In this document: positions 1 through 61,598 of the stretch, one piece after another
Numbering within the stretch: the stretch's first letter is position 1
Layout: each line of letters starts with the position of its first letter
DNA from: Cladocopium goreaui
Taxonomy: Eukaryota; Sar; Dinophyceae; Suessiales; Symbiodiniaceae
NCBI GenBank assembly: GCA_947184155.2
Contig: CAMXCT020003702.1
Span: forward strand, 284,001 to 348,000
Direction: 5' to 3'
DNA: 64,000 bases
Notes under the pieces: generated by a model
The model's database searches: none
What the model was told of the DNA's origin: nothing
What the model saw: only the letters and a program-made list of their open reading frames with translations
Made by a program: the position numbers and the translations under genes

Positions 1-103
1 CCTCTGGTAAACTAAAATAGCTATGGAAAACCACCATTTTTAATAGGTAAATCAACTATTTCGACTGGGCCAGTTTCAGCTATTTTGACATAACCAGAGG
101 GTA
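1..103. mobile_element. family A MITE, left end cut by window
   Basis: Ends CCAGAGGGTA. Left arm word AAACTAAAATAGC, right arm TATGTCAAAATAGC: the two arms differ. Confidence 0.8.
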
Positions 104-324
104 TCATAGCTTTCCAAGTCCCCATAAAATATCCATAAAATCCCCATGAAAGTCATCCAATGATGGGGAAACTATCTCCATTAAAATGGAAAGTCATCCC
201 ACTAATGGATATTTCCATTGGGATATCTCCATTTTTATGGGATATTAATGGACTTTTTCCCCATTAAAAATCCCCATTGGGTGAGTCATCCCATCCCCAT
301 GGTCCCATGGCGCCATGATCTCAC

Positions 325-503
325 GCCACTTATCCCGCTGCGCCGTTCTCGGCAGCACCACGGGGCGCAGCGGCACCACCGCGGTGCCGGTGCCGCCGGT
401 GCCGCGGCCGCAGAGCACCGGGATGCGACCGGGCGGTTTGGAAAACGGGACGGCATCGCACAGCATGGCGGCCGGGCGGTGGGAAGAGAAGGTGGGTTTA
501 GCA
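325..503 (-). CDS. putative exon, Gly/Pro-rich (most downstream exon seen)
   Basis: 59 codons with 1 nt each side: starts AKPTFSSHRPAAMLCDAVPF, contains GRIPVLCGRGTGGTGTAVVP and ends AQRDKW. Donor C|GTGAG; acceptor AAAAG. Nearly every third position is G or C. No family recognised. Confidence 0.6.
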
Positions 504-789
504 CTTTTAGACCCACCCGATTTTTTTTTAATCCCACAGTTTTGGGATTTTCATGATGGAATTTTCATGGAACTTTGATGATTGAGATTCTCATAATCCA
601 TCATAATCCCCAGTCACTGCCATTGTCCTGTTTTTTGGTGGTTGGGATTCTCATAGTACCCTCTTTTTAATTTCATTTTCACGGGAAGAAAGTGCAGAAA
701 CAGTTTTTGTTATTCCTTGGTGCCAAAACATGCATCTTATGTTCGTTGTCGTTTTGTGTTTTGAAGATGTGACGGAATGATGAAATGAT

Positions 790-898
790 TACCCTCTGGT
801 AAACATACAAAAAACTATGGCAAATCACCATGCTATCAATGGGAAAATCCACTATAAATGGTCATTTTCAATAGCTATTTTGACATAACCAGAGGGTA
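790..898. mobile_element. family A MITE
   Basis: TA-CCCTCTGGT ... ACCAGAGGG-TA. Left arm AAACATACAAAAAAC, right arm TATGTCAAAATAGC. Confidence 0.85.
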
Positions 899-1142
899 AT
901 TCTGATCATCGTCACCCTGTGTTTCCACATGTTTCATCGACTGCAGCTCAAAACTGCGGCTTAAAGATATCAAACTGTCTGGGTGTTGTCAACATCCCTG
1001 AGCTTGGGAAATGCCAAGAAACATCAAAACAACCAAAAAACGTTGTTCTTGGTTGCATATTTACTACATATCACTATATTTGAGATACCCTCTGGTAATC
1101 AAACATGCTTTCCTGGAAAAAAAACATTCAAATTGGTAATCT

Positions 1143-1323
1143 ACAGCATCAGGACTTTGGCATGCGCAGCGCGAAGCCGCCGCTTCAAATCCTTAAAGAA
1201 ACAACGAGAGACCTGGGAACATGACCTTGACGAGGAGCCAGGCATCGAGATTACCACAGAACCAAACTGGGAACACGTTGAACAAGCCAGCGCAAGCTGG
1301 AAACTTTACCCCAACCAAACCTA
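1143..1323 (+). other. coding-like stretch on plus strand, not assigned
   Basis: Plus frame SLKKQRETWEHDLDEEPGIE continuing to LYPNQT and TAG. No matching exons on this strand. Contains GCGCAGCGCGAAGCCGCCGC. Might be the 3' part of a gene fragment. Confidence 0.25.
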
Positions 1324-1333
1324 GCGAAGGATC

Positions 1334-1434
1334 TTTAGGATGAAGTTGTTTGGGTCTCTGAACACACTCCCAACAGACATCTCCTCCGTTGCATCTCGAC
1401 CTTCGGCGGGTGACCTCCGTTGCGGCACCGGTGT
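1334..1434 (-). CDS. putative exon
   Basis: 33 codons plus 2 nt: TPVPQRRSPAEGRDATEEMS then VGSVFRDPNNFIL; acceptor ATGTCAG, donor AAA|GA. A second minus frame (DTGAATEVTRRRS) is also open. In phase with both neighbours. Confidence 0.5.
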
Positions 1435-1594
1435 CTGACATGTGTAAATGTACATAGTATGGTTTCTATAGATATGATATTAGATGATATATATATATAC
1501 ATACTGTATACAGACAGTATATATGTTACAGTATATATGTATATACATATATACATACTGTATATATGTTATATAATGTTTTATGTGTATGATG

Positions 1595-1676
1595 GATAGA
1601 CGGATAGTCGGATAGACGGATAGTCGGATAGACGGATAGATGGATGGATGGATGGATGGATAGATGGATGGATAGA
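1595..1676. repeat. GATAGACG/GATG microsatellite
   Basis: (GGATAGACGGATAGTC)n followed by (ATGG)n; immediately next to a family B element. Confidence 0.9.
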
Positions 1677-1801
1677 TACAAGGTGGTGCCCCCAAGATAG
1701 CTAAGTTGGTTTATAACTCTAATAACTATGGTTTATGGTACTTATAACTATACTTACTGGGGTTTATAAACCAACTTATAACTGGGGGGCACCACCTTGT
1801 A
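1677..1801. mobile_element. family B MITE
   Basis: TA-CAAGGTGGTGCCCCC ... GGGGGGCACCACCTTG-TA; subterminal AAGTTGGTTTATAA inverted in both arms. Confidence 0.85.
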
Positions 1802-1889
1802 GATAGATAGGATAACCCCCTAAAGCACCCATTCAACAAAATAACAAAGGCTGTTTTTACGATTTTCAAATGGCTCCACTGGTGTAATC

Positions 1890-2006
1890 TTGGCGCCCCG
1901 GCGCCCACGTCGCGAAGACGGAGGAGGCCGGAGACAGCGGCGGCGACGGAGGCGGAACGTCGGCGTCGGGCGAGTCGAGGCTGCCAGTCATGGCCGGGAT
2001 GTATAG
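1890..2006 (-). CDS. putative exon, Pro/Ser-rich
   Basis: 39 codons; includes MTGSLDSPDADVPPPSPPLS then PASSVFATWAPGRQ. Nearly all third positions are G or C. The Met at 1989-1991 could be a start codon; otherwise acceptor CGACAG at 2007-2008. Donor CCAA|GA. Disordered linker type. In phase with 1334-1434. Confidence 0.55.
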
Positions 2007-3243: not shown

Positions 3244-3348
3244 TACCATCTGGTTATTTAACATAGCCATGGAAAATCACCATTTTTAATAGGTAAACCA
3301 TCTATAAATGGGCCATTTTCCATGGCTATGTTAAATAACCAGAGGGTA
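3244..3348. mobile_element. family A MITE
   Basis: Both arms carry TATTTAACATAGCCATGG; left terminal changed to CCATCTGGT. Confidence 0.85.
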
Positions 3349-3558: not shown

Positions 3559-3658
3559 CTGGTTGGTGGTGCTATAACCATCTTGAAAAAGATTAGTCAA
3601 TGGGAAGCATTATCCCATATATTATGGAAAATAAAAAATGTTTGAAACCACCAACCAG
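3559..3658. mobile_element. family C MITE
   Basis: CTGGTTGGTGGT ... AAACCACCAACCAG; core CTTGAAAAAGATTAGTC ... CCCATATATTATGGAAA. Confidence 0.75.
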
Positions 3659-3819: not shown

Positions 3820-3924
3820 TACCCTCTGGTTATGTCAAAATAGCTATTGAAAATGGCCATAGAATAGTGGATTTCTCATTGAAAATGCTGATTTCCCATA
3901 GCTATGTTAAATTACCAGAGGGTA
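3820..3924. mobile_element. family A MITE
   Basis: Left arm TATGTCAAAATAGC, right arm AATTTAACATAGC. Starts 37 bp upstream of an exon acceptor. Confidence 0.85.
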
Positions 3925-4334: not shown

Positions 4335-4451
4335 TACCATCTGGTTATGACTAACATAGCCATGGAGAATCCCTTATAAATGGAAGTATTAATGGGAAAA
4401 TCATCTATGAATGGGCCATTTTCCATGGCTATGTTAAATAACCAGAGGGTA
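4335..4451. mobile_element. family A MITE
   Basis: Left arm TATGACTAACATAGCC, right arm TATTTAACATAGCC. Confidence 0.85.
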
Positions 4452-4907: not shown

Positions 4908-5090
4908 TACCCTCTGGTTATGTCAACATTTAATGGGATTTTAATGGGATTTTATGGTGGTTTTATGGTGGTTTAATGGGATTTAATATGGTAAACATAC
5001 AAAAAGCTATTGAAAATGACCATAGAATAGTGGATTTACCCATTAACAATGGGGATTTTCCATAGTTTTTTGTATGTTTACCAGAGGGTA
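4908..5090. mobile_element. family A MITE with internal insertion
   Basis: About 65 bp of TTTAATGGGATTTTATGGTGG repeat is inserted in the left arm; a second, complete left arm (AAACATACAAAAAGC) follows it. The same filler occurs at 8649-8690. Confidence 0.8.
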
Positions 5091-5297: not shown

Positions 5298-5430
5298 TAC
5301 ACAATGTGGGGCCCCCTAGATAGCTAAGTTGGTTTATAAACCCCATGAATACTATAGTTATAGGTACCATAAACCATAGTTATTGGAGTTATGTTCACCA
5401 ACTTAGCTATCTAGGGGGCCCCACTTTGTA
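5298..5430. mobile_element. family B MITE
   Basis: CACAATGTGGGGCCCCC and GGGGGCCCCACTTTGTA ends; TAGATAGCTAAGTTGG arms. Confidence 0.85.
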
Positions 5431-5799: not shown

Positions 5800-7080
5800 T
5801 TTATGATGGTAACCTACTGATAAACCAACGGACAAATCAGCTGATCAACCAACTTAATCTATCTAGGATTGCCCATGATGGAAAGTTGGATGATCACCTG
5901 GTGATTTTATGATGTTTATGGTTATCATCCAATTTTATGGTTGAGAGTTGGATGATAACCTGATGATGGAGAGTTGGATGATTTGATGATGTTTACCCAA
6001 AGCTCCTAATGTCGTAGTTGCTTCAATGTTGGATGGTAACCTACTGATAAACGGACAAATCAACTGAACCAACCAACTTAATTAATCTAGGGATGCCCCA
6101 CCTATATAAATATATACTGTTATATACTTATCACAATGATATGTGCGGTGAATTCCCCAAGTCATGGATATGACGGGCAATGGACTGGAACATGTTGGGA
6201 AATCTGGGAAATCCCATATGAAAATAGATGAACATCAGAATTTTCAAGAGATAAATCATCATGAATCATCTATGAATATGAGATGTCCATGTAGAAATAT
6301 TATATATTGAAGGCTGTATAAAGTTAACATTTATATATATAATATGTGTATATTATATATATGTATCACATATACATGGGAATGTTACATTTCCTCTACA
6401 AATATAATGGTGAATATTATATTTAATATGTTATATAAGATTCCCATATCTATATTTATTATCAGTATAGATATTGATCACTTTATATTAGAATATATTG
6501 ATAGATATAGTATATTGATCACTAATATAAACGATATATATATATATGTATATGATATCTAGATATTAACTCTATATTTGGTATAGTGATCTCTAATCAC
6601 TTTATAGATAGTGATCACTATATATATATATATATGGAAAATTATAAATATATATGGTAATAGTAAGGGTGATAATTATGGTATGGTATTATTATATATA
6701 TAGTTACATAATAGTGATCAATATACTAAATTATATAATATAACGTGATGACAATATAAAGTATAATATAAATAGAGATAGATATTATAAAGAGTGCATA
6801 TAAGGGAATTATTATATATATATATATTGTATATTTATTATAATAAACATATATATTTATTAAAATTAATATACGTATATTGTAATAGAACATAAAGTGG
6901 TTGGTGGTTTGGAACATTTTTTATTTTTCCAGACATTGGGAATTATAATCCCAACTGACGAACTCATATTTTTCAGAGGGGTAGGTATACCATCAACCAG
7001 CCATAAATAGAATATAAAGTGATAATAGAGTGTTGTATCATTAGATATATTATCACTTCATATATATATATATATATACA
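5800..7080. other. intronic AT-rich stretch
   Basis: Duplicated GTTGGATGATAACCTGATGA-type segments (5780-6090), then TATATA-rich sequence to 7.08 kb with one family C element at 6897-7000. No coding island. Confidence 0.7.
6897..7000. mobile_element. family C MITE (inverted orientation)
   Basis: Contains TTCCCAATGTCTGGAAA core in inverse, CCTCTGAAAAATATGAGTTC motif on the right. Confidence 0.75.
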
Positions 7081-7704: not shown

Positions 7705-7830
7705 TAACCCTCTGGTTATGACTAACAGTTCGCCATGGTATAGATGGCCCATAGAAATAGATGCTTTACCGTTCTTAATAGCATGGTGGATCTTTCCATG
7801 GCGAACTGGCAATGCCATAGCCAGAGGGTA
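7705..7830. mobile_element. family A MITE
   Basis: Arms TATGACTAACAGTTCGCCATGG and GGCTATGGCATTGCCAGTTCGCC. Confidence 0.8.
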
Positions 7831-8595: not shown

Positions 8596-8755
8596 TACCC
8601 TTTGGTAAACTAACATAACTATGGAAAATCACCATTTTTAATAGGTAAATGGGATTTTAATGGGATTTTATGGTGGTTTAATGGGATTTAATATGGAAAA
8701 TCACCATGCTATTAATGGGAAAACTCACTATTTCGACTGGGCCATGTTCAATAGC
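8596..8755. mobile_element. family A MITE, right end lost
   Basis: TACCCTTTGGT, arm AAACTAACATAAC, then the TAATGGGATTTTATGGTGG filler and a broken right arm. Confidence 0.65.
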
Positions 8756-8773
8756 ATCAACTCTAGTGATGTC

Positions 8774-8935: not shown

Positions 8936-9039
8936 TACCCTCTGGTAAACTAACATAACTATGGAAAATCACCATTTTCAATGGGAAAATCCACTATAAA
9001 TGGTGATGTTCAATAGCTATGTTAAATTACCAGAGGGTA
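8936..9039. mobile_element. family A MITE
   Basis: Left arm AAACTAACATAAC, right arm AATTTAACATAGC. Confidence 0.85.
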
Positions 9040-9408: not shown

Positions 9409-9533
9409 TACAATGTGGGGCCCTCAAGATAACTAAGTTGGTTTATAACCCAAATAACTATGGTTTATCATACTTATAACTATAGTTAATGGGGTTTATA
9501 AACCAACTTATAACTGGGGGGCCCCACATTGTA
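9409..9533. mobile_element. family B MITE
   Basis: TA-CAATGTGGGGCCCTC ... GGGGGGCCCCACATTG-TA. Confidence 0.85.
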
Positions 9534-9773: not shown

Positions 9774-9877
9774 TACCCTCCGGTAACATAGCTATTGAAC
9801 ATTGCCATAGAAATAGTGAATTTTCCCACGAATAGCATGGTGGATCTTTCCACAGCTACGTTAGTTTACCAGAGGAT
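9774..9877. mobile_element. family A MITE
   Basis: CCCTCCGGT left end; right arm AAACTAACGTAGC. Confidence 0.75.
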
Positions 9878-12964: not shown

Positions 12965-13084
12965 TACCATCTGGTTATTTAACGTAGCCATGGCAAATTA
13001 TCACCATTTTTATCCATTTTTAATAGGTAAACCATCTATAAATGGGCCATGGCTTCCATGGCTATGTTAAATAACCAGAGGGTA
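12965..13084. mobile_element. family A MITE
   Basis: Same arm pair and right flank (ATTCCCATTAATTCCCTATGG) as the copy at 3244, so the two loci share a co-duplicated neighbourhood; followed by another right half ending near 13178. Confidence 0.8.
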
Positions 13085-13706: not shown

Positions 13707-13811
13707 TACCCTCTGGTAAACTAACATAACCATGGAAAATCACCATTTTCAATGGGTAAATCCACTATAATTGGCCATTTTCAATAGCTATTTTGACATA
13801 ACCAGAGGGTA
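13707..13811. mobile_element. family A MITE
   Basis: Left AAACTAACATAACC, right TATGTCAAAATAGC. Confidence 0.85.
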
Positions 13812-15196: not shown

Positions 15197-15384
15197 TACC
15201 CTCTGGTAAACGTTTACAAAAAACTATGGAAAGATCCAACATGTTTCATGGGAGAATTCACTATTTCTATGGCCATTTTCAAGTTCGCAAACTATGGAAG
15301 CCATGGCCCTAATCGAAATAGATTGTTTACCTATTAATAGCATGGTGGATCTTTCCGTGGCTATTTTGACATAACCAGAGGGTA
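15197..15384. mobile_element. family A MITE, long form
   Basis: Left arm AAACGTTTACAAAAAAC, right arm TATGTCAAAATAGC, with an extra internal arm (GTTCGCAAACTATGG). Confidence 0.8.
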
Positions 15385-15506: not shown

Positions 15507-15698
15507 TACCCTCTGGTAATTTCTTACAAAAAACTATGGAAAGATCCACCATGCTATTCATGGGAATTTTCACGAATTTGACATAACCCTAGAGGGTAGA
15601 CTAACATAGCTATTGAAAATCACCATTGTCAATGGGTAAATCCACTATTTCTATGGCCATTTTCAAGGTCGCAAACTGTTAGTTTACCAGAGGGTTTA
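15507..15698. mobile_element. two family A MITEs merged
   Basis: A short copy ends CCTAGAGGGTA and the next begins in that sequence (ACTAACATAGC); only one terminal motif lies between them. Confidence 0.7.
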
Positions 15699-17314: not shown

Positions 17315-17424
17315 TATCCTCTGGTAAACTAACACTTTGCTATGGACAATCACCATTTTTGGTGGTTAAATCAACTATTTCTATGGCCATTTTCAATAGC
17401 AAACTGTTAGTTTACCAGAGGGTA
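17315..17424. mobile_element. family A MITE
   Basis: Arms AAACTAACACTTTGC and AAACTAACAGTTTGC. Confidence 0.85.
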
Positions 17425-18377: not shown

Positions 18378-18499
18378 TAACCCTCTGGTTATGACTAACA
18401 TAGCCATGGTATAGATGGCCCATAGAAATAGATGGTTTACCTGGGTTTACCTATTAAAAATGGTGATTTTCCATGGCTATGTTAAATAACCAGAGGGTA
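18378..18499. mobile_element. family A MITE
   Basis: Left TATGACTAACATAGCC, right TATTTAACATAGCC. Confidence 0.85.
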
Positions 18500-19298: not shown

Positions 19299-19429
19299 TA
19301 CCCTCTGGTCATGACTAACAGTTCGTCATGGAAAGATCCACCATGCTATTAAGAACGGTAAATCATCTATTTCGATTAGGGCCATCGAAAAACCATGGCG
19401 AACTGTTATATAGTCATAACCAGAGGGTA
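19299..19429. mobile_element. family A MITE in a TA microsatellite
   Basis: Arms TCATGACTAACAGTTCGTC and TATGACTATATAACAGTTCGCC; inserted into (TA)n, consistent with TA target preference. Confidence 0.85.
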
Positions 19430-19973: not shown

Positions 19974-20091
19974 TACCCGGCCTGGTAAACGTTTAAAAAA
20001 AACTATGGAAAGATCCACCATGCTATTCATGGGAAAATCCACTATAAATTGCCATTTCTAATAGCAAACTGTTAGTTTACCAGGCCGGGTA
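19974..20091. mobile_element. family A MITE, CCCGGCCTGG subfamily
   Basis: Both ends read CCCGGCCTGGT instead of CCCTCTGGT, a paired change in both termini. Confidence 0.85.
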
Positions 20092-20946: not shown

Positions 20947-21077
20947 TACCCTCTGGTAATGACTAACAGTATCTAACAGTTAGCTATCGAAAATGGACCA
21001 TAGAAATAGTGAAAATGGATTGAGCCACTGAAAATGGTGGATCTTTCCATCGTTTTTTGTATGTTTACCAGAGGGTA
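20947..21077. mobile_element. family A MITE
   Basis: Left AATGACTAACAG, right AAACATACAAAAAACG. Confidence 0.8.
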
Positions 21078-21385: not shown

Positions 21386-21507
21386 TACCATCTGGTTGTG
21401 ACATTGCCAGTTCGCCATGGAAAGATCCACCATGCTATTAAGAACGGTAAACCATCTATATAAATGGGCCATCTATACCATGGCTATGTTAGTCATAACC
21501 AGAGGGT
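21386..21507. mobile_element. family A MITE
   Basis: Left TGTGACATTGCCAGTTCGCC, right TATGACTAACATAGCC. Confidence 0.8.
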
Positions 21508-23389: not shown

Positions 23390-23494
23390 TACCCTCTGGT
23401 AAACTAACATAACTATGGAAAATCACCATTTTTCATGGGAAAATCCACTATAAATGGCCATTTTCAATAGCTATTTTGACATAACCAGAGGGTA
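23390..23494. mobile_element. family A MITE
   Basis: Left AAACTAACATAAC, right TATGTCAAAATAGC. Confidence 0.85.
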
Positions 23495-23879: not shown

Positions 23880-24001
23880 ACCCGACCGGGTAAACATACA
23901 AAAAACGATGGAAAAACGTGAAAATCACCATGTTTAATGGGAAAATCAACTATTTCGACTGGGCAATTTTCAATAGCTATGTTAACGTTTACCAGAGGGT
24001 A
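23880..24001. mobile_element. family A MITE, degenerate left end
   Basis: Left arm AAACATACAAAAAACG, right arm AAACGTTAACATAGC. Confidence 0.75.
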
Positions 24002-25566: not shown

Positions 25567-25670
25567 TACCCTCTGGTAAACTAACATAGCTATTGAAAAT
25601 GGCCATTTATAGTGAGTTTTACAATTAAACATGGTGATTTTCCATAGTTATGTTAGTTTACCAGAGGGTA
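25567..25670. mobile_element. family A MITE in a TATA microsatellite
   Basis: Both arms AAACTAACATAG/AC; flanked by TATATATA on both sides. Confidence 0.85.
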
Positions 25671-27711: not shown

Positions 27712-27815
27712 TACCCTCTGGTAAACCAACATAACTGTGGAAAATCATCATCTTTAATGGGTAAATCAACTATAGATGACCATGTTCAATAGCTATGTTT
27801 GTTTACCAGAGGGTA
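27712..27815. mobile_element. family A MITE
   Basis: Left AAACCAACATAAC, right AAACAAACATAGC; right flank repeats the ATATTAAATCCCATTAAACC filler seen at 15700. Confidence 0.85.
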
Positions 27816-31802: not shown

Positions 31803-32575
31803 CTAACGGTTGATATCATCGAAATGGTCAATGGTTGATATATACTGATGGTTAATGGTTATTGGTTATTGGTTAATACTTCAGGTATTGGTTAATAATG
31901 GTTAATAATGGATACTAAAAAATATTGGTTAATAGTGGATCATATGCGTATATATATATATCTTTAAGATGGTTAATATATAATGATGATTCATAAGGCT
32001 TGGTTAATGGTTAATGGTTAATCATTTCCCTGACAAGTGATGGTTGGTTGATGAATATTTCACTTGTCAACGAGATCCCCACTTTGGGTGGCCAAAACCC
32101 AAAGTAATCGCGGATTCAATCCCGAGTCCATTCCCATGAGATATATCTATAATTTGGGGGGGCCCTTGGACAACTATTCTTTACAGGATTGAAAACTTAT
32201 GAAAACTTGATGTTCTACACTTTAGGGGTCCATTTTCCACATTTCAAGGCTTCATTTTCCACACTTCCAACACCGAGTTTCCACCTTATATAATATAATC
32301 CAAGTACAATGGGTTATATTCATGGTTTATAAACCATAGGGGATGCACTCAGGATATGCACATGGGGTTGTTGATGGGTAAACTATGGGGTTTTAACCCC
32401 CATAAGTTGGGATAATACAACAACTCTGGTTATGTAAGCTTGAAACAAAATCGTGGAATTCCAACCCCCCAGGTAGATTTGTATAGGCAGAAATCATCTT
32501 TAAACCACAATAAAAACCATCATCAAACATCACAAACATATAGGATTTTCAGACACATCCAACTCTACCCTCTGG

Positions 32576-32677
32576 TAATTTAACATCTAGCTATTGAAAA
32601 TGGCAATAGAAATAGTGGATTTACCCATTGATAGCATGGTGATGTTCCATAGTTTTTTGTATGTTTAACAGAGGGTA
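32576..32677. mobile_element. family A MITE
   Basis: Left AATTTAACATCTAGC, right AAACATACAAAAAAC. Confidence 0.8.
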
Positions 32678-33057: not shown

Positions 33058-33181
33058 TAGCCTCTGGTTTCTACATACAAAAAACGATGGAAAGATCCAC
33101 CATGCTATATAGCTGGGTAAATCCACGATTTCGACTGGGTCATTTTCCAGTTCGCTATGTCTGTTAAATTGCCAGAGGGTA
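33058..33181. mobile_element. family A MITE
   Basis: Left TTCTACATACAAAAAACG, right AATTTAACAGACATAGC. Confidence 0.8.
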
Positions 33182-51238: not shown

Positions 51239-51344
51239 TACCCTCTGGTAAACTAACATAAAAAAACGATGGAAAGTCATCATTAGTCAGTGAAATTGCC
51301 CATGAAAAATGCTGGATCTTTCTGGAACAAATTACCAGAGGGTA
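51239..51344. mobile_element. family A MITE in a cluster of three
   Basis: Left AAACTAACATAAAAAAACG, right AATTTGTTCC. Confidence 0.8.
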
Positions 51345-51353
51345 CCATCTGGT

Positions 51354-51457
51354 TACCCTCTGGTGAACTAACATAGCAATGGAAAATGGCCATTTATAGT
51401 GGATTTTCCCATGAAAAATGGTGATTTTCCATTGCTATGTTAGTTCACCAGAGGGTA
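51354..51457. mobile_element. family A MITE, near-perfect palindrome
   Basis: GAACTAACATAGCAATGG in both arms; the youngest-looking copy in the window. Confidence 0.9.
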
Positions 51458-51557
51458 ATTGTTACAATCCGCCATGGAAAGATCCACCATTTTAAGTTCG
51501 GTAAACTATCTATTTCTATGGACCATGGCTTCCCTGCAACAAATAACCAGAGGGTTA
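51458..51557. mobile_element. family A MITE, degenerate
   Basis: Directly adjoins the previous copy; GTTACAATCCGCCATGG left arm, TATTTGTTGC right arm. Confidence 0.65.
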
Positions 51558-51577
51558 CGAAAAAAAAAGATCTCCCA

Positions 51578-51855: not shown

Positions 51856-51889
51856 CTGTATGAAAATGAATGAGACATCTCAAAATGGG

Positions 51890-53975
51890 ATATTAATAGT
51901 GGATAATAGTGGTAAATAGTGGCTAATAGTGGTTAATGGTGGTTAATAGTGGTTAATAGTTAATACTGTAGTGGTTAATAGTGGTTAATAGTGGTTAATA
52001 GTGGTTAATAGTGGTTAATAGTGGTTAATAGTGGGTAATAGTGGGTAATAGTGGTTAATAGTGGTTAATAGTGGTTAATAGTGGGTAATAGTGGTTAATA
52101 GTGGTTAATAGTGGTTAATAGTGGGTAATAGTGGTTAATAGTGGGTAATAGTGGGTAATAGTGGGTAATAGTGGGTAATAGTGGGTAATAGTGGGTAATA
52201 GTGGTTAATAGTGGTTAATAGTGGTTAATAGTGGTTAATAGTGGTTAATAGTGGTTAATAGTCAATACTGTAGTGGTTAATAGTGGTTAATAGTGGTTAA
52301 TAGTGGTTAATAGTGGTTAATAGTGGTTAATAGTGGTTAATAGTGGTTAATAGTGGTTAATAGTGGTTAATAGTGGTTAATAGTGGTGAATAGTGGTTTA
52401 TAGTGGTTAATAGTGGTTAATAGTGGTTAATAGTGGTTAATAGTGGTTAATAGTGGTTAATAGTGGTTAATAGTGGTTAATAGTGGTTAATAGTGTTTAA
52501 TAGTGGTTAATAGTGGTTAATAGTGGTTAATAGTGGTTAATAGTGGTTAATAGTGGTTAATAGTGGTGAATAGTGGTTAATAGTGGTTAATAGTGGTTAA
52601 TAGTGGTTAATAGTGGTTAATAGTGGTTACTAGTGGTTAATAGTGGTTAATAGTGGTTAATAGTGGTTAATAGTGGTTAATAGTGGTTAATAGTGGTTAA
52701 TAGTGGTTAATAGTGGTTAATAGCGGTTAATAGCGGTTAATAGGGTTTAATAGTGGTTAATAGTGGTTAATAGTGGTTAATAGTGGTTAATAGTGGTTAA
52801 TAGTGGTTAATAGTGGTTAATAGTGGTTAATAGGGGTTAATAGTGGTTAATAGTGGTTAATAGTGGTTAATAGTGGTTAATAGGGGTTAATAGTGGTTAA
52901 TAGGGGTTAATAGGGGTTAATAGTGGTTAATAGGGGTTAATAGTGGTTAATAGTGGTTAATAGTGGTTAATAGGGGTTAATAGGGGTTAATAGGGGTTAA
53001 TAGTGGTTAATAGTGGTTAATAGGGGTTAATAGGGGTTAATAGTGGTTAATAGTGGTTAATAGTGGTTAATAGTGGTTAATAGTGGTTAATAGTGGTTAA
53101 TAGTGGTTAATAGTGGTTAATAGTGGTTAATAGTGGTTAATAGTGGTTAATAGTGGTTAATAGTGGTTAATAGTGGTTAATAGTGGTGAATAGTGGTTAA
53201 TAGTGGTTAATAGTGGTTAATAGTGGTTAATAGTGGTTAATAGTGGTTAATAGTGGTTAATAGTGGTTAATAGTTTATACTGTAGTGGTTCATAGTGGTT
53301 AATAGTGGTTAATAGTGGTTAATAGTTAATTTAATAGTGGTTAAAAGTTAATTTAATAGTGGTTAATAGTGGTTAATAGTGGTTAATAGTGGTTAATGGT
53401 TAATACTGTAGTGGTTAATAGTGGTTAATAGTGGTTAATAGTTTGGGTAATAGTGGTTAATAGTGGTTAATAGTGGTTAATAGTTAATACTGTAGTGGTT
53501 AATAGTGGTTAATAGTGGTTAATAGTTAATACTGTAGTGGTTAATAGTGGTTAATAGTGGTTAATAGTGGTTAGTAGTGGTTAATAGTGGTTAATGGTGG
53601 TTTTCCTGCGTGGTTCCTGTGGTTCTGGTGGTTCCTTGTGGTTCCTGGTCGGTTCCTGGTGGTTTCCTTGTGGTTCCTGGTGCGTTCACTGGGGTTCCCT
53701 GGTAGTTCCTGGTGGTTCCTGGTGTTCCTGGTTGTTCCGGTGGTTTCCTGGTGTCCTGGTGGTTTCCTTGGTGGTTCCTGGTGGGTGGTTAATGGTGGTT
53801 AATGGTGGTTAATGGTGGTTAATGGTGGTTAATGGTGGTTAATGGTGGTTAATAGTGGTTAATAGTGGTTAATAGTGGTTAATGGTGGTTAATGGTGGTT
53901 AATAGTGGTTAATAGTGGTTAATAGTGGTTAATGGTGGTTAATAGTGGTTAATAGTGGTTAATAGTGGTTAAATT
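51890..53975. repeat. 10-bp satellite (GTGGTTAATA)n, about 2.1 kb
   Basis: Roughly 190 copies with patches of variants (GTGGGTAATA, GGGGTTAATA, GTGGTTAATG). The spacer AGTTAATACTGTAGTGG recurs at 51958, 52260, 53276, 53400, 53483 and 53525. Interrupted at 53600-53785 by a TGGTTCCTGG-type block. Intronic in the proposed gene model. Confidence 0.95.
53600..53785. repeat. TGGTTCCTGGTGG-type block inside the 10-bp satellite
   Basis: Irregular repeats of GGTTCCTGGTGG(T). Open shadow frames on the plus strand are not considered genes. Flanked on both sides by GGTGGTTAAT units. Confidence 0.85.
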
Positions 53976-53979
53976 GAGA

Positions 53980-54100
53980 TACCCTCTGGTTATGACTAAC
54001 ATAACCATGGAAAATCCCTCATAAATGGAGGTTTATAGCTGGGAAATTCATCTATAAATGGGCCATGGCTTCCATGGCTATGTTAAATAACCAGAGCGTA
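53980..54100. mobile_element. family A MITE
   Basis: Left TATGACTAACATAACC, right TATTTAACATAGCC; next to the end of the 10-bp satellite. Confidence 0.85.
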
Positions 54101-54448
54101 AGATATAATGATGTACACGTATGATCTTAAGATTAATTTATTATGTATATTAATATGTGTACACATATGATCTTAATCTCTAATGATGCGCACATATCAT
54201 ATCATATTAAGATTAACTAAGCATGACGTACATATCATATCTCACCTATTCATGATATACACATAAAATTAAGAGATGATTTGTATGTATCCATAAGATG
54301 AATTGTATGATCTACACTCTCTTTTTTAAATATACATCAAACATCTCTATAAATGATGTACACACACATATACAAAAATGTTCATGAATGTGATTATATG
54401 GGTATATAATTTTGTATATGGCTTCATGTGTGTACATGGATGTTTCTT

Positions 54449-54545
54449 AAAATGGGGGATCCCCAAGTCACCATGGCTGTTTCAATACAAAGTCATGGTC
54501 TAGTGACTTGGATGATTTGGGGTACCCCTGACTTAAGAAACTTCC
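54449..54545. mobile_element. family H element
   Basis: TTCTTAAAATGGGGGATCCC ... GGGGTACCCCTGACTTAAGAA with CAAGTCACCATGG inside. Confidence 0.65.
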
Positions 54546-54746
54546 ATATTGGGCCTATCCCATCTCATTATACTAGTTGGTTTGATAGGTTTCCCTACTA
54601 TGGGTTATACTAATCCTCTAAAAAAACAGGTAGTATAATCCTTTGTAATAACCAATCAACAGGGGTATTCTTCATGGTTCATATGTGTTGGGGGAGCATA
54701 CGGTTGCAATACCATTGGATGCGACTCAACAAAAATGACGACTCGC

Positions 54747-54814
54747 CTGTGCTTTGCGCTTCTCTCCTGGTAGATTCACTGCACCTGCCGGTGGCCCCAT
54801 TTCGAAAAGGGATC
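54747..54814 (-). CDS. putative exon, Ser/Thr/Arg-rich
   Basis: Frame IPFRNGATGRCSESTRREAQ then ST. Acceptor TTGAG|G lies in a small tandem of GGATCCT units (54809-54842); donor ACAG|GC. In phase with the preceding exon. An alternative short exon ending at CGGCAG|GT in another frame cannot be excluded. Confidence 0.45.
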
Positions 54815-55221
54815 CTCAAGGGATCCTCATGGGATCCTCGAGGAGGGTGTAATTGGCTGAAAATGGATAAGGATGGTGCCTTTTAAACGGTGCTTTGAAT
54901 GGGGTTATATAATGTTATATATACACCATTTCTAGCCGATTGATAGTTGAAAACGAGTCTCTGAAGTGGTTTCAACAGGCTTATGTTCTACAAAAATGAA
55001 TGGAGTTATACTTACTGCTACTCCCATCACTGCGAGGTGCGTCCAGATTTGGTATATATGGTATGGTCATCTATCCCCCGAAAAGGAAACCTTACAGGTA
55101 TATACTTTGGGGGTTCCACTGGCCATTTGTGTCATTTGTGGCCTTGGATTTCACCATAGTTGTAGGGTTCAAAAAAGATCCCAACTTTTAGAGGTTTAAA
55201 TCCCATATCAATGGGAATTCC

Positions 55222-55360
55222 AGGATCCTAAAATGGAGGTACTGTACCATATAAGGCCAATTTCTGTAAGGATATTCCCTGAAATTTAGGCCTAAAAAAT
55301 AGGCCTTACATAGGCCTTATGGTAGGTACCTCCAATCAATCGGATCCTGAAATGGCCATT
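55222..55360. mobile_element. family E MITE
   Basis: ATCCTAAAATGGAGGTACTG ... GGTACCTCCAATCAATCGG, same core as 17795. Confidence 0.7.
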
Positions 55361-55411
55361 GACCATATGAGTTATACCATGTTATACCCATGGAAAATCC
55401 CATGAAGAATC

Positions 55412-55528
55412 CTGAACTGCACCCCGTTCAGTTTCTGTCCCTGGTGGAACGGTTGGATTTTTGCGAAAAAATCAGATCCCACACGGACGATTTCGATGAT
55501 AACCCCCCAACGAAACCGAAACACATGG
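55412..55528 (-). CDS. putative exon, beta-rich segment
   Basis: Open GC3-rich frame HVFRFRWGVIIEIVRVGSDF, then FAKIQPFHQGQKLNGVQF, after a CCAG acceptor and before an AG|GA donor. Its 2-nt overhang fits the 1-nt start of 54747-54814. The opposite strand is also open (ELHPVQFLSLVERLDF), so strand is inferred from context and phase. Confidence 0.5.
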
Positions 55529-55653
55529 CTGGTTCGGGGATGTTCCCAGCTATAAACCTCCATTCATATAGGGATATATAGGGGATGTTCCATGATTTTC
55601 CATGATTTTCCATGATTTCCCCATCATATTGGGCCCCCAAAATAGAGGGTATC

Positions 55654-55717
55654 TTCCCGCTTCACAGGGCCTGAAGTCTTCAGCGTGTCTTCATAGGCGC
55701 GATTGCAAGACAAGCAC
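55654..55717 (-). CDS. putative exon with Cys-x2-Cys
   Basis: Acceptor TTGCAG|G, then CLSCNRAYEDTLKTSGPVKR and E. The CLSC pair could be half of a metal-binding site, but no partner pair is visible. GC-rich third positions. The donor is unsure (GA or GC). Confidence 0.5.
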
Positions 55718-56404
55718 CTGCAAGGCCCAAGGCATCCATGGTTGGGGTTGGTACCCCCATTTCGACGAGTTCCAACCCTCATTTTTCGTGGATAACAACA
55801 TCAGATCATATAACTATATGATGTCCTTAAACATTCTTAAATTGGGTTTTTTGTTGGAGATCATAATTGTATGGGAGGTACTATGGATTTCCAATGGTTG
55901 CTTCTTTTTGCAGTGGCAATTAGTTCCATTTCATCCGTGGCAGTGGTACTTTCGAGATTGAGGGCAAAGGCCATGTGGTAAATTCTTCCCATCGAACAAT
56001 CCCATGAATGGCCATGAAGTTTCAATTAGTCATACTAGTGGACATTAATAACCACTAAAGGCTATAAGAATGGTGGGTAAAAACCATGATGCTGATTTTT
56101 GGCTTCGCCTCATTCGTAACCATAGATTTCTAAGTGCCCCATTGGAGTATGGCATACTGAGAATGCCATCCGCCATGGAAACTCAGCCATCAAAAGATGC
56201 TCCTCCTGAGTAGATGATTTACTCGGGTATTTCTATGGCCATGGCTGCCATGGCTGAAACTACCAGATCATCAGGTAGCAATAAGTAGCCTCTATGGCCA
56301 TGTTAGTTTGGTTCGATCATGTTCTTCCGGGGCTCCAAAAGCCACCATGGTTATTACCCATGATAATTACCATCCCGTGGCCAAAGAATACCCAGTGGTT
56401 TCAG

Positions 56405-56512
56405 TACAAATGGGGGATCCCCACCAAGTCACCATGGGCCCGTTGAACAATACGCGTCGTCATGGGTCATCCATGACGACTGGATGATTTGGGGTATCCA
56501 CTTTAGGAAACC
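56405..56512. mobile_element. family H element
   Basis: Second copy: ATGGGGGATCCCCACCAAGT ... GATTTGGGGTATCCACTTTA. Confidence 0.65.
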
Positions 56513-56541
56513 CTCATCCACAGCCATTCTAGATCATTTTC

Positions 56542-56637
56542 CTGCGTTCCCGATGGGCTTTCCACATCGTTTTCCTCATCGGCCCTCTGATCGGACCTTG
56601 CTCCAAAGAGCACCGCTTGCTCTCGGTCTTTGGCATT
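56542..56637 (-). CDS. putative exon, charged low-complexity segment
   Basis: 32 codons starting NAKDREQAVLFGARSDQRAD and ending ESPSGTQ. Acceptor CTCGCCAG, donor CAG|GA; phase 0. A second minus frame is also open and GC3-rich (RMPKTESKRCSLEQ), so the frame is not certain. A shorter exon ending at an AG|GT site (GCAAG|GTCC) is possible. Confidence 0.45.
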
Positions 56638-57690
56638 CTGGCGAGAACGCGCGGAGTTTCCAGGGGATTCGTATTGATCATATGGGAGGTCTCAAATCAA
56701 TATCAGTTGCTTCACCCCCTAAATATCCTTGCAACATTTGCTCATGACTAATGATCCCATATCGTGAGTCTGCGCCCCAAAAAAAAATTGAGATTGAAAT
56801 AGTTCATCAATTGCAGGTGATGCTAGACTTTTTGATCCTGCTATCTCCAGTAATCAAACGTTGCAATGGAAAATCCCCTGCAAATGGACGTGTTAATCCA
56901 AAAAAACATCTATAGTGGGGGAATGTTTGACTGCCGCGTTTGATTACCGGATGGTATATCTTAGCATAGATGTTCATTTCAAGTTGTTTGAAAACCCAGC
57001 TGCCATATGTGTCGCAAAAAGTTGAAGTCAGTTCAGATAACTTCCCATATAATATCCCATGTTCATCACATTTCAGCGCTTCATATTTCAAATTACCATG
57101 AAAAAGACCCCATGATTGTTGGTTTTAAGTTAAGCTATACATACTGTGTTCAAATTGAACCCCAAATTGTGTCCCTTTTTTAATGGTATATCCAAGCATC
57201 AACCATCAACCAACCATCACCAGTCACCAGTATCGTATATATCAACCCATCAGGGGTTGATGTTGAAATAAATCTAGTGGTTGATGTTAAAATAGTGGGA
57301 TTGGAATAACAACATCCAGATGGTTATAGCATAGTTGATGTTTATATATGTTTTGTAACAACCCACAAAAAATATTTCAACATCCAGTATGTTAATGAGA
57401 AATAAAATGGATTTGACGACCTAAAGATGGTAAAATGAAGCTCTAACGTATCAACAAAAACATTTGACGAGCTATATGAAAGGTAAAATGATACGTTAGA
57501 CCTTCATTTACCGCTCTCAAAGACCCTGGCTGAAAACAAAAATAACATTTGGAGATGGGTCGGGGCCGGATGGCTTGCCATCTGGGGGGAAGAACCATCC
57601 AAAATAAGCAACGATTTTTTGGGCTACGTATTTGCTATTATATACATCAGGTACTTTTCCATATGGAATATACATATATATACATATATA

Positions 57691-57802
57691 TATGGTTGGT
57701 GGTATACCTACCCCTCTGAAAAATATGAGTTCGTCAGTTGGGATGATGAGATTCCCAATATGATGGAAAGTCATAAAAGTCATGTTCCAAACCACCAACC
57801 AG
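57691..57802. mobile_element. family C MITE
   Basis: GGTTGGTGGT ... CCAAACCACCAACCAG with the CAGTTGGGATGATGAGATTC core. Confidence 0.8.
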
Positions 57803-57892
57803 ATATTAATGGGATATACTGGATATACATTTAGTTCGTTGATTTACCTATTCAAAATGGTGATTACCTGATTACCTATTCAAAATGAAACA

Positions 57893-57998
57893 TGTTCCAA
57901 ACCACCAGCCAGAGATTATTAACTAACCATCATTAACCACTATTATTGGTATATAATCCCATTGTAAAGATGATTATCCCATTATAATAACCACCAAC
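57893..57998. mobile_element. family D repeat, inverted
   Basis: AAACCACCAGCCAGAGATTA ... TTATAATAACCACCAACC. Confidence 0.7.
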
Positions 57999-58114
57999 CA
58001 GCTAGTTATACTATAGTTATATCTATCATAAACCATAGTTAAACCCATATATACATATATACATTTTTTTGGGTACCTACTGTGCCAGTGTTTTGACTCA
58101 TAACTATTTCGTTC

Positions 58115-58198
58115 CTGGACGTCCCAGCCATGTTTGATTTTCCACCGGTGCGGGCAACGTTTTGGAAGCATCCACAGGTGTTTTTTCCCAACATCCAG
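58115..58198 (-). CDS. putative exon
   Basis: 28 codons starting LDVGKKHLWMLPKRCPHRWK and ending HGWDVQ, between an AAG acceptor and a CAG|GA donor; phase 0 at both ends. Rich in Lys, His and Trp; no family recognised. Confidence 0.5.
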
Positions 58199-58400
58199 CT
58201 TAATTCCATAAAATTTCATTAAAATCACACTAGATCTCATAAATTTTGAAGAAAAAGACCATCAAAATCTCACTCATTCTCATTCAATCCAAAAAAAGAC
58301 ACTAAACTCCCATTAAAATCCAATTAAAACCACATCAGATTCCATTCAATTCCACTAAATCCCATTCGGATCCCATATTTCCCTGACTCGGCGGAGGTTC

Positions 58401-58472
58401 CTCCTCCATGGCACGCATTTTTCCCGCGAGGAATTGGAGTTGTTCTTCCGCCTGGTGCGAAATGCTTGGTAA
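58401..58472 (-). CDS. putative exon, coiled-coil segment
   Basis: 24 codons, LPSISHQAEEQLQFLAGKMR then AMEE. Acceptor is a pyrimidine-rich CTCTCAG, donor GAG|GA; phase 0 at both ends, continuous with neighbours at 60057 and 58115. A slightly longer version ending ...PPPS with a GT donor is also possible. The plus strand has an open frame here too, but the minus frame carries the helical pattern shared with other exons. Confidence 0.6.
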
Positions 58473-58519
58473 CTGAGAGGCAAGAGGTGAGTGGGCAGTC
58501 AATGAATGCTAAGATGAGT

Positions 58520-58800
58520 ACTATATATATATATACTAGATATTATATTATACATACTATATATATATACACTATATTATATACTATATATATACACTAT
58601 ATATATACTAGATATATACTATATTATATGGTTATGTTGTTAGCACTTTCGTATCAAGGTTGACGACATATGTAATATGTATATATGTATATATATATAT
58701 ACATATTTACAACATATCTTACATATTATATATATACATATTTACAACATATCTTACATATTTTATATGTATATATACACACATGTGTGTGTGTTAAGCA
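58520..58800. repeat. TATA-rich microsatellites
   Basis: (TATACTATA)n at 58520-58630 and two copies of an ACATATTTACAACATATCTT unit at 58700-58760. Confidence 0.85.
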
Positions 58801-59099
58801 AATTTATGTATATAGATATATGGGTTGGCAAGTGATACGGTTCACCCCAATTTTTAGGCCCATCACAAAGCCTCCCAAAAATCTGGGTTTGGTGGTGTGA
58901 AACATGGTGCTGTACTCCCATGCCCGAAAACATGTTCGCAGAATCCCAGTTCGATCGTCGGAGTGGTTTCCTCCAAAGTCCGGGATTTTATGGTGGTTTA
59001 ATGGGATTTTATGGGATTTTAATGGGATTTATAGTGATTTAATGGGATTTATAGTGATTTAGTGGGATTTATAGTGATTTAATGGGATATATGATGGTA

Positions 59100-59208
59100 T
59101 ACCCTCTGGTAAACTAACAGTTTGCTCTTGAAAATGGCCCAGTTATCATTGATTTACCTATGAAAAATGATGATTGTCCATAGTTTTTTGTATGTTTACC
59201 AGAGGCTA
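59100..59208. mobile_element. family A MITE
   Basis: Left AAACTAACAGTTTGC, right AAACATACAAAAAAC. Confidence 0.85.
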
Positions 59209-59399
59209 CTGGTAAACATCATCATTCACAAATCCCTTCCCCAGAAACCATGGTGGATGTAGGAGATAAAACCAGATATTACCATAGAATGGGGATGTTG
59301 AAATATGTTGAATACCAAGGGGGGATGGGATTATGGTATGTCAACTGAAGCAGATCTCAAACAGGTTTTTCCTATTTGGGTGGCTGGATTCAGAAGTTC

Positions 59400-60030
59400 A
59401 AGATCTTTGGCAAAATATGAAGGTTCAATATAATGTAATGTAATCTAATGCAAAAAAACATCGTGCAAGATAGAAATGTAATCTATCAAAATACGATATA
59501 ATATAAACCGAAATATAATTTAATATCGTATAGTATAGTATGATATAGAGAATATTGTATATTACATTACACATTATCATACTAAATATCCTAAATATCA
59601 TATTTTATATCATGTATATAGTATTATCATGTCATAGTGCATTAAATATCTATATCATATTTTAAACATATCATATGTATATATATATACGTATATATAA
59701 TAATTATATAATAGCATGTAATATTATATAATATGGTTAAAACAATGTCATAAACAACCCGCCAAATCACCAGAAATAGGTGGTCTGGTTACCATTTCCA
59801 AATGGGTGGTTTATGACATTGTTTTACCCACATTACTGTTGATGGACAAAGTCATGCACCAGTTGCTTGGGGCTTTGTCCCACTACTACCCCCATATATA
59901 TATAAATGATAACATATGAACAATATATATATATCCACAAAATATTTTTAAATATCCTAAATATATATATATATACACAATATATTTTTAAATATCCTAT
60001 TTATATTTATATATATATCCCAACTGATAC
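59400..60030. other. AT-rich stretch
   Basis: TAATATAAT-type low-complexity DNA with a family G element at 59735-59890 and two copies of AAATATTTTTAAATATCCTA near 59940-60000. No coding island. Confidence 0.6.
59735..59890. mobile_element. family G element
   Basis: AAAACAATGTCATAAACAAC ... GGGTGGTTTATGACATTGTTTTACCC, followed by TGTTGATGGACAAAGTCATG as in the second copy. Confidence 0.75.
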
Positions 60031-60056
60031 CCCGCCATTGACCCATCTTCCACGAC

Positions 60057-60116
60057 CTTGTCCTCGATCCGATGCGTCTCACGGGCCAGATCCATTTCCA
60101 ACGTCTCAAGACGCTC
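60057..60116 (-). CDS. putative exon, coiled-coil segment
   Basis: Exactly 20 codons, ERLETLEMDLARETHRIEDK, between a CCAG|G acceptor and a textbook AAG|GT donor, phase 0 at both ends. Hydrophobic residues every 3-4 positions suggest a coiled coil. A family A element begins 34 bp upstream of the acceptor, at 60150. Confidence 0.65.
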
Positions 60117-60149
60117 CTGGCCGCGAGTTCTCCAGAAAATCTGGGTTAT

Positions 60150-60264
60150 TACCCTCTGGTTATTTAACATAGCCATGGAAAATCCCTTATAAATGGAGGT
60201 ATTAATAGGAAAATCATCTATAAATGGGCCATTTTCCATGGCTATGTTAAATAACCAGAGGGTA
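60150..60264. mobile_element. family A MITE
   Basis: TATTTAACATAGCCATGG in both arms; 34 bp from an exon acceptor. Confidence 0.85.
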
Positions 60265-60818
60265 ATATGTTTTTGATATGGTTAATGTGTTTTGATATGG
60301 TGTGTGTATATGCTTAATATGGTGTTTTATATGTTTTTTGTGTGGTTCTTTATGTGTTTTTGTTTTTAAATACGGTTTTTGGTATGTTTTTTTTTTACAT
60401 AGTATGTACATAGTATGGTTTGCTATGGGGCTAGAATGGCAGCCATGGCTTTATAGGGCTTAATATGGAGATGTTAAGGGTACAAAAATGGGATAACACG
60501 GGGATTTAACCAACACTTAAAATGGTGGTTTATTTTATGTATAATAGGAATATCATGGGAACGTCATGGGAATATGGACTATTGATGTACCATTCATGGA
60601 TCTTTCAACGCTGCCATAGCTGGGCAGCCAAGCCAAGGAGGAGGCCCAGCTAAGGAAAAGGGTCATTTCATAGGGTTTTTTTTGGGGAACTGGAGCCATC
60701 CTGATATCATATTCTAATGGGATTATGATTTTATAGTGATTTTAATGGGATTTATAGTGATTCTAATGGGATTTTATAGTGATTCAATGGGATTTCAATG
60801 GGATATTTCATCGAAATA

Positions 60819-60945
60819 TACCCTCTGGTTATGACTATATAACAGTTCGCCATGGTTTTTCCATGGCCCTAATCGAAATAGATGGTTTACCTAGCAACAA
60901 AAAATGGGTGGATCTTTCCATGGCGAACTGTAACAAATAGCTATA
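60819..60945. mobile_element. family A MITE, right end lost
   Basis: TATGACTATATAACAGTTCGCC left arm; right arm ends GCGAACTGTAACAAATAG without CCAGAGGG. Confidence 0.65.
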
Positions 60946-61024
60946 GATGTCCGGCTTTCCCATTGGTTGATTGTAGAGGGGTTGGAAGGTTTACCCCTTT
61001 AACAACAGGTAAATGTTTAATGAT

Positions 61025-61162
61025 ACTTGGTGGCGAACTACCCACGAATCGTAAGTGGGTGAGTTCACCCCAGTTATAAATGGGATTTTTGTAGGGTTAG
61101 TCCACTCAAAAAACTGGGGTGAACTAACCCACTTACGATTCGTGGGTAGTTCGCCACCAAGT
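61025..61162. repeat. 138-bp foldback with ~50-bp arms
   Basis: ACTTGGTGGCGAACTACCCA, then CGAATCGTAAGTGGG and CACCCCAGTT, is repeated inverted on the right with about one mismatch. Confidence 0.9.
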
Positions 61163-61294
61163 AGATGGTATACCAGTCACCGACCCAAAAGGACATGAAA
61201 ACGGTGGAAAACTCACCATTTTTTGGATCATGTTCCGACGGGTTCAAACACCATAGCTTTTCCATAGCGATGGTTTTGCGTTTCACCCTAAGGG

Positions 61295-61410
61295 TACCCG
61301 GCCTGGTAAACGTTTACATAACCATGGAAAATCACCAGTGTTCATAGGTAAATCAACTATTTCTATGGCTATTTTCAAGTTCGCAAACTGTTAGTCATTA
61401 CCAAAGGGTA
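61295..61410. mobile_element. family A MITE with mixed ends
   Basis: Left end CCCGGCCTGGT, right end ACCAAAGGG: the two termini belong to different subtypes. Confidence 0.8.
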
Positions 61411-61497
61411 TCACAGGATTTAATTCTTCATATTAAGTCCTTTTTTTGTATTAATAATGTTAAAGGGGTTTCTACAAACCCCTCTATTACCCTCTGG

Positions 61498-61598
61498 TAA
61501 ACGTTTACATAGCGAACTGGAAAATCACCATGCTATTAATGGGTAAATCCACTATTTCTATGACCATTTTCAATAGCTACGTTAAATTACCAGAGGGT
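61498..61598. mobile_element. family A MITE
   Basis: Left AAACGTTTACATAGCGAAC, right AATTTAACGTAGC. Confidence 0.8.

Follow-up and report, generated by a model that had tools for sequence, protein, structure and literature searches.

The window analysed here, 64,000 nucleotides of the nuclear genome of the dinoflagellate Cladocopium goreaui (C3702:284001-348000), holds many copies of a palindromic element of about 100 bp with the terminal inverted repeats CCCTCTGGT/ACCAGAGGG. It raises the question of how the short words next to these termini, the arms of a copy, come to be combined so freely. The sequence-only reading, an earlier description made from the letters of the window, had taken the differing left and right arms as a sign of recombination, gene conversion or template switching between copies, or of selection on the short words themselves. 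We found that in the larger of two lineages of copies (lineage I) left arms, right arms and most interior blocks combine near-randomly, and that no classified copy pairs an arm of lineage I with one of lineage II. The lineage I combinations, and the copies that differ in the next word despite a common flank, are most simply explained by recombination, gene conversion or template switching.

Arm pairing and probable exchange between copies

DNA of the same genome was added to the window from 200 kb upstream, from 40 kb of contig C2 and from eight 3-kb loci. Extraction of copies of 80-135 bp with each end within two mismatches gave 126 two-ended copies, 30 from the window (the copy at 51241, of ambiguous orientation, was excluded) and 96 from outside. 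The window and the fetched DNA together contain 373 termini, from which 235 arms were parsed at no more than one mismatch. They draw on a limited stock of 12-15 bp words. Read inward from the terminus, an arm starts with AAAC, AATTT, AATGAC, GAAC, TATTT, TATGAC or TATGTC and goes on with TAACATA(G/A)C, TAACAGTTTGC or AGTTCGCC, ATACAAAAAAC, GTTTACATAGC or one of a few others; 21 of the 64 conceivable combinations were seen. The seven arm words quoted in the sequence-only reading are all present in the window; AAACATACAAAAAAC alone among them was counted genome-wide (3757), and the others were seen again in the 240 kb of fetched DNA and the eight small loci.

By coarse arm types, the two ends differ in 20 of the 30 window copies and agree in 10, in line with the earlier statement that the arms of one element often differ. 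Tokens for these copies came from regular expressions and from hand entries for 14 of the 30, 13 of which altered a token. The related statement, that the two arms of a copy are not mutual inverses, is true of most window copies; the near-perfect palindromes at 3246, 51356 and 60152 are exceptions. When a copy is oriented by its interior alone, which in the window agrees with whole-element orientation in 30 of 31 copies and which could be done for 125 of the 126, the arms prove polar. The word TATGTCAAAATAGC was found at no left and 7 right ends (p = 0.014), AATGAC with GTTTGC at no left and 6 right ends (p = 0.029), and ATACAAAAAAC at 16 left and 4 right ends (p = 0.008), these p values being uncorrected for the 17 types tested. 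Since some words sit exclusively or mainly at one end, the left/right asymmetry that had been put down to exchange is partly ordinary transposon-end polarity.

Both arms were classified in 94 copies; the 32 others comprise one unoriented copy and 31 with an unclassified arm. Lineage II arms are TATTT and TATGAC, and TATGTCAAAATAGC was put in lineage I by hand because its partner arms are of lineage I. The 94 copies comprise 70 I-I pairs, 24 II-II pairs and no I-II pair, where random pairing would give about 36 mixed ones. Arm association over all 94 is therefore strong (mutual information 1.44 vs 0.80 shuffled, p = 0.0002), as two lineages exist without cross pairs, and it persists within lineage II (n = 24, p = 0.003). 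Lineage I (n = 70) is near random, with 31 distinct pairs vs 31.3 in shuffles and mutual information of 0.59 vs 0.48 (p = 0.07); its 54 copies outside the window gave p = 0.16. For left arms with ATACAAAAAAC or TAACATA and right arms with GTTTGC or TARC, the four combinations occur 8, 4, 5 and 15 times. Five-block haplotypes, built from regular-expression blocks with blanks counted as states (3, 13 and 10 of 70 in three interior blocks), are distinct in 49 of the 70 copies. A few subfamilies with fixed arm pairs, which the sequence-only reading had named as the observation that would speak against it, are thus seen in the split between the two lineages but not inside lineage I.

More direct evidence of exchange comes from copies with a common flank but a different adjoining word. 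The window copies at 7708, 18381, 21506 and 51554 and the upstream copy up_4630 share the repeat Y plus about 20 bp at the same element end, and the words adjoining this flank are TATGACTAACAGTTCGCC, TATGACTAACATAGCC (twice), TATTTGTTGCAGGGAAGCC and TATTCAACATAGCC. The Y flanks of up_4630 and 21388 agree at 98.5% over 65 bp, yet the adjoining word is TATTCAACATAGCC in one and TATGACTAACATAGCC in the other. The far half of 18381, which differs from the repeated GGTTTACC onward, diverges far more than flank and near half do (p = 3e-5 vs 7708, 1e-6 vs 21506), and the far halves of 7708 and 21506 agree (p = 0.77). Between 51554 and 7708 the flank has 53 matches and 11 differences and the near arm 27 and 23 (p = 0.0009); this near arm is also unlike those of 18381 (p = 0.007) and 21506 (p = 0.004). 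Two other flanks gave p = 7e-6 for 27813 vs 15694 (flank F 48/2, arm 27/19) and p = 0.047 for 3246 vs 15382 (flank Z). The Y evidence is preferred to that of F, which is simple sequence, and all these Fisher tests assume independent aligned positions, which is not quite the case. Among the 126 copies there are 28 pairs sharing a flank on one side and none sharing both; the highest number of one-sided pairs was 6 in 100 sets of random places and 10 in 50 sets of random places flanked by TA.

Statistics of site order back exchange between copies only in part. The four-gamete test fails at 28 of 28 pairs among eight blocks of the 30 window copies. As a proof of recombination this was dropped, because simulation without recombination yields as much incompatibility and the count alone is therefore not diagnostic. 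We accordingly kept the test only for words well apart: all four combinations occur at 21 of 28 block pairs if the words must be separated by 3 or more edits, and at 7 of 28 if by 4 or more. In the window the pairwise homoplasy index (PHI) was significant for 31 copies together (p = 0.0005; z -3.1 vs a minimum of -1.9 among 40 simulations), for lineage I (p = 0.0065) and for lineage II (p = 0.001), but it is given little weight, since multi-base words align neighbouring columns even without recombination. For control, three smaller local repeat families, all small samples, gave incompatibilities of 0.16 (B, 7 copies, PHI p 0.95), 0.31 (C, 6 copies, p 0.16) and 0.00 (Y, 6 copies), and random six-copy subsets of the main family gave 0.40.

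A number of these results weigh against exchange. Simulated evolution without recombination on the fitted tree gave 0.58 incompatible site pairs vs 0.51 observed (40 simulations), and some words are only 1-3 edits apart, so that convergence can explain part of the pattern. Outside the window PHI was not significant for 95 copies (p = 0.18) or for 54 lineage I copies (p = 0.51), and for 18 lineage II copies its p of 0.011 rose to 0.14 after thinning. Neighbouring blocks are no more compatible than distant ones (p = 0.10); either very frequent exchange erased the distance signal, or homoplasy masks recombination. Pairing in lineage I is imperfectly random, with 19 same-type arm pairs vs 13.3 shuffled (p = 0.024) besides the borderline mutual information. 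Ten block pairs were tested there: the left arm is associated with the inner left block (p = 0.03) and the right arm with the middle block (p = 0.002), and the other eight pairs are near-independent. In three of six Y-set pairs the near arm is no more different than the flank (p = 0.67, 0.83, 0.054), and the number of copies involved in flank sharing, 18 of 126, is one that TA-flanked random places also reach (mean 8.2, maximum 20). Arm words are also mostly intact inside, CCCTCTGGTAAACATACAAAAAAC occurring 3757 times genome-wide vs 118 for the TAACAAAAAAC form; ATACA is paired with AAAAAC in 30 of 31 arms. As the words are rarely cut internally, the exchangeable unit is at least as large as one arm word of 12-15 bp.

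The family, its ends and its relatives

The earlier estimate of about 40 copies with common ends was borne out. Exact CCCTCTGGT occurs 53 times in the window vs 0.29 expected, a count reached in none of 100 shuffles, and these words terminate about 45 short palindromic elements with TA duplications. In pairs, these ends delimit elements some 100-127 bp long; a few fused copies measure about 180 bp. Our hand list holds 45 copies and fragments spread over 1-33179 and 51241-61719. Between 33.2 and 51.2 kb there is no listed copy, and a profile search gave two weak partial matches only (E 0.03 and 0.26). These 18 kb (33200-51200) carry several long tandem arrays, including 269-bp, 55-bp and 94-bp units.

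In the 1,165,616,438 bases of the host genome, ends of the CCCTCTGGTWWR form number at least 81,641 (40,718 + 40,923), a lower bound because the pattern misses arms starting with TAT or AAT; the reversed control pattern gave 711 (360 + 351). The dinoflagellate spliced-leader 21-mer matched 172 times (81 + 91) and its control never, which points to a dinoflagellate host. Median length was 106 bp, within the 80-135 bp to which extraction was limited. TA flanks both sides in 104 of the 126 two-ended copies, compared to 0.66% of random places, which is the target-site duplication of Tc1/mariner elements. In DNA folding, nine of nine copies beat all 200 shuffles (z -3.3 to -14.6). Short, non-coding, bounded by terminal inverted repeats and present in high copy number, the family is one of very abundant non-autonomous DNA transposons, or miniature inverted-repeat transposable elements (MITEs), in a dinoflagellate nuclear genome.

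An alternative terminus, CCCGGCCTGGT, joins the same inner words, often at one end only. Of the 126 copies, 8 carry one terminus of each kind, 5 of which are flanked by TA left and right, and a single copy has the CCCGGCCTGGT type at both ends. The outermost word is thus exchangeable as well. The ratio is biased, because the collecting model was seeded mostly on the common terminus. The intact duplications of hybrid copies suggest that copies with mixed termini could still transpose.

The sequence-only reading had proposed to look for the same words in an autonomous relative. None was found among the eight matches to PF13358 (DDE_3) in the own genome, other transposase families not being searched; these loci were rejected as partners, as no element ends frame the gene. 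Single end-like words occur at loci L033 and L036. The overlapping loci L038 and L039 show two one-mismatch end words 1,535 bp apart, which were not read as element ends because they lie at corresponding places of a tandem copy. Viral contigs gave no match to the element, Rfam none at the gathering threshold, and five open reading frames of the window no Pfam family at E up to 0.1. Three end-pattern matches in prokaryote contigs were dismissed as chance, their interiors sharing nothing by eye.

Tc1/mariner MITEs have a TA duplication, short inverted repeats and no coding capacity, as here, but usually form homogeneous subfamilies with fixed ends, in which the present family differs. Galileo of Drosophila, compared below, is a larger element than the present MITE. 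The paper on the MtPH-M-3 elements of Medicago truncatula uses the term 'AGR', which we take to be abortive gap repair. What follows on published systems holds for the extracts of the papers available to us. The PIF/Harbinger-like MtPH-M-3 elements are likewise non-autonomous with variant subterminal blocks; MtPH-M-3-VI has the 3' subterminal region of one lineage on the body of another, and the authors discuss 'AGR' (PMC2213677). One mosaic element is named there, in an element type with a 3-bp target duplication, as against near-random pairing in 70 copies and more than 81,000 ends here. Galileo, a Foldback-like element of the P superfamily and thus of another superfamily, has long inverted-repeat ends, undergoes ectopic recombination between copies, and has had template switching proposed for its structural variants; reassortment at the level of words is not described in the extract (PMC4168063). 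TIMEs, miniature elements derived from Tn3, are also described as generating mosaic non-autonomous elements but are bacterial (PMC4133298). The introners of dinoflagellates (family 1 of Symbiodinium microadriaticum; Amoebophrya) are short like the present elements and have inverted repeats along with direct repeats or target duplications (PMC9860276, PMC7789003). The S. microadriaticum introner differs in 4-bp duplications and its own 3' splice site (PMC9860276); here the duplication is TA. Among the titles and abstract openings listed from an open-licence library, none describes this family, near-random pairing of arms, or dinoflagellate MITEs with reassorted arms. Mosaic MITEs are known, and reassortment of such degree within isolated lineages is unusual.

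Origin of the mosaics

We think it probable that this is a TA-target MITE family whose copies swap patches by homology-dependent repair and whose recombinants then transpose. Breaks would arise on excision of a copy or at its palindrome, and a second copy from within the lineage would serve as donor for the repair, through gene conversion, interrupted gap repair or template switching; the need for homology would keep lineages I and II apart. Recombinants would stay mobile and be amplified by TA-target transposition, a transposase acting in trans being assumed. The fused doubles (15199, 15509), the joins with filler F (4910, 8598) and a composite between 16-bp repeats fit break repair between copies; in rice, excision gaps are repaired with filler DNA, according to the extract of that study (PMC4423477). 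A wider form of this reading is tentative, and we rate it somewhat less likely than not: tens of thousands of dispersed copies would form a recombining population, with lineage I near linkage equilibrium and lineage II fully isolated by lack of homology or by end compatibility with the transposase, and with the terminal word segregating too, so that ends, arms and centre assort independently.

It is unlikely, though of some weight, that a few dozen old recombination events founded many fixed-pair subfamilies, which transposition then amplified while small mutations converged, with no continuing exchange. The 94 copies fall into 39 distinct pairs, the commonest seen 15 times, and are already split into two fixed lineages; PHI is not significant for two of the three sets from outside the window, and the incompatibility counts match the simulation without recombination. 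Lineage I has, however, as many distinct pairs as shuffling produces, and some flank-sharing copies differ in their adjoining words. Less probable again is copying from arm to arm within one element, where a hairpin or cruciform lets one arm correct the other and words move inside a copy. Within lineages, the two arms of one copy resemble each other a little more than shuffled partners do (p = 0.015), as the excess of same-type arms also indicates, and this leaves room for some such copying; 7708 carries AGTTCGCC on both arms where the flank-sharing 21388 has it on one, and all folded copies beat their shuffles. But arms differ in two thirds of the window copies, whereas homogenisation would make them alike. 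The symmetric GAAC..AGCAATGG copy at 51356 was rejected as a private arm-to-arm change: a second such copy was found upstream, so it is a subtype and no proof of correction in a single copy.

That the copies are introner-like elements, with ends CTG/GTAAAC ... TTACCAG/AGGG and words kept by splicing constraints in either orientation, seems very improbable. GT and AG do stand at both ends in both orientations and can be read as splice sites. Against this, an end such as GGTTAT makes a poor 5' splice site, and of 64 GC-rich exon-like stretches only 5 are 20 bp or less from a listed copy, including two that overlap with a copy. Introners with terminal inverted repeats and target-site duplications have been published for Symbiodinium (PMC9860276), and those of dinoflagellates have been reviewed (PMC11453091), as far as the extracts go.

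If exchange between copies is so frequent, subfamily trees from whole elements would be wrong for the present family, and its copies would document, in readily usable form, how dinoflagellate nuclei carry out ectopic repair. To our knowledge, the repair pathways of these nuclei are poorly known. The barrier between the otherwise similar lineages I and II, with no cross pair in 94 classified copies, allows a direct test of whether exchange is limited by sequence homology or by the compatibility of ends and transposase.

Copies of the window and neighbouring repeats

Window copies of the element. Positions are those of the window. Column Arms denotes words of the left (L) and right (R) arm, or as stated.
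Positions	Strand	Class	Arms	Remarks
792..896	+	lineage I	L AAACATACAAAAAAC, R TATGTCAAAATAGC	
3246..3346	+	lineage II	TATTTAACATAGCC both arms	near-perfect palindrome; left flank Z = right flank of 15199-15382
3822..3922	-	lineage I	L AATTTAACATAGC, R TATGTCAAAATAGC	
4337..4449	+	lineage II	L TATGAC, R TATTT	
4910..5088	-	composite	outer arm TATGTCAACA	then filler F, then inner copy without its terminus
7708..7828	-	lineage II, Y-flank set	AGTTCGCC both arms	
8598..8756	+	composite		two partial copies around filler F
8938..9037	+	lineage I	L AAACTAACATAAC, R AATTTAACATAGC	
9776..9876	-	lineage I	R without first block	interior AGATCCACC
12967..13082	+	lineage II		inside composite flanked by 16-bp direct repeat
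13709..13809	+	lineage I	L AAACTAACATAAC, R TATGTCAAAATAGC	
15199..15382	+	fused double copy		184 bp; right flank Z in common with 3246
15509..15694	+	fused double copy		186 bp
17317..17422	+	lineage I	CTTTGC / GTTTGC	
18381..18497	-	lineage II, Y-flank set		far half unlike 7708 and 21388; repeated GGTTTACC at join
19301..19427	+	lineage II	CATGAC / TATGAC	AGTTCG words
19976..20089	+	alternative terminus		CCCGGCCTGGT both ends, same inner words
20949..21075	-	lineage I	L AAACATACAAAAAAC, R AATGACTAACAGT	
21388..21506	+	lineage II, Y-flank set	near ATAGCC, far AGTTCGCC	
23392..23492	+	lineage I	L AAACTAACATAAC, R TATGTCAAAATAGC	
23881..23999	+	hybrid terminus		CCCGACCGGGT ... ACCAGAGGG; left CA instead of TA
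25569..25668	-	lineage I	symmetric AAACTAACATA	
27714..27813	+	lineage I		right flank F in common with 15694
32568..32675	-	lineage I	L AAACATACAAAAAAC, R AATTTAACAT	
33060..33179	+	lineage I	ATACAAAAAAC / AATTTAACAG	
51241..51342	.	ambiguous orientation		excluded from arm tests
51356..51455	-	GAACTAACATAGCAATGG subtype		perfect-arm palindrome
51460..51554	-	one-ended, Y-flank set	near TATTTGTTGCAGGGAAGCC	
53982..54098	+	lineage II	TATGAC / TATTT	
59102..59206	-	lineage I	ATACAAAAAAC / TAACAGTTTGC	
60152..60262	+	lineage II	TATTTAACATAGCC both arms	near-perfect palindrome
61297..61408	+	hybrid terminus		CCCGGCCTGGT ... ACCAAAGGG; TA both sides
61490..61597	+	lineage I	L AAACGTTTACATAGC, R AATTTAACGTAGC	

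The composite at 12950-13192 consists of one full and one partial copy between 16-bp direct repeats TAAATCCGTTGCAACT (12950-12965 and 13177-13192), like a templated insertion at a staggered break.

Two other dispersed families lie among these copies. One has the terminal inverted repeats CAAGGTGGTGCCCCC / CAATGTGGGGCCC and also shows arm variants (1678-1802, 5301-5428, 9411-9533, 14219-14357 and 22614-22734); its copy at 5301 has symmetric AGATAGCTAAGTTGG arms, those at 1678, 9411 and 22614 have TATAACTGGG on the right, and those at 14219 and 27124 have another left arm. The other, with ends GGTTGGTGG ... CCACCAACC, has six copies (3559-3656, 6898-7001, 18731-18851, 29626-29732, 31176-31275 and 57693-57800), too few for a mosaic test. 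A long array of the 10-bp unit GGTTAATAGT occupies 51900-53600. Short GC-rich stretches are found in 1-33000 and 54000-64000, several of them open on the minus strand with peptides that look coiled-coil-like by eye; one or several long genes may have these stretches as small exons and the elements in their introns.

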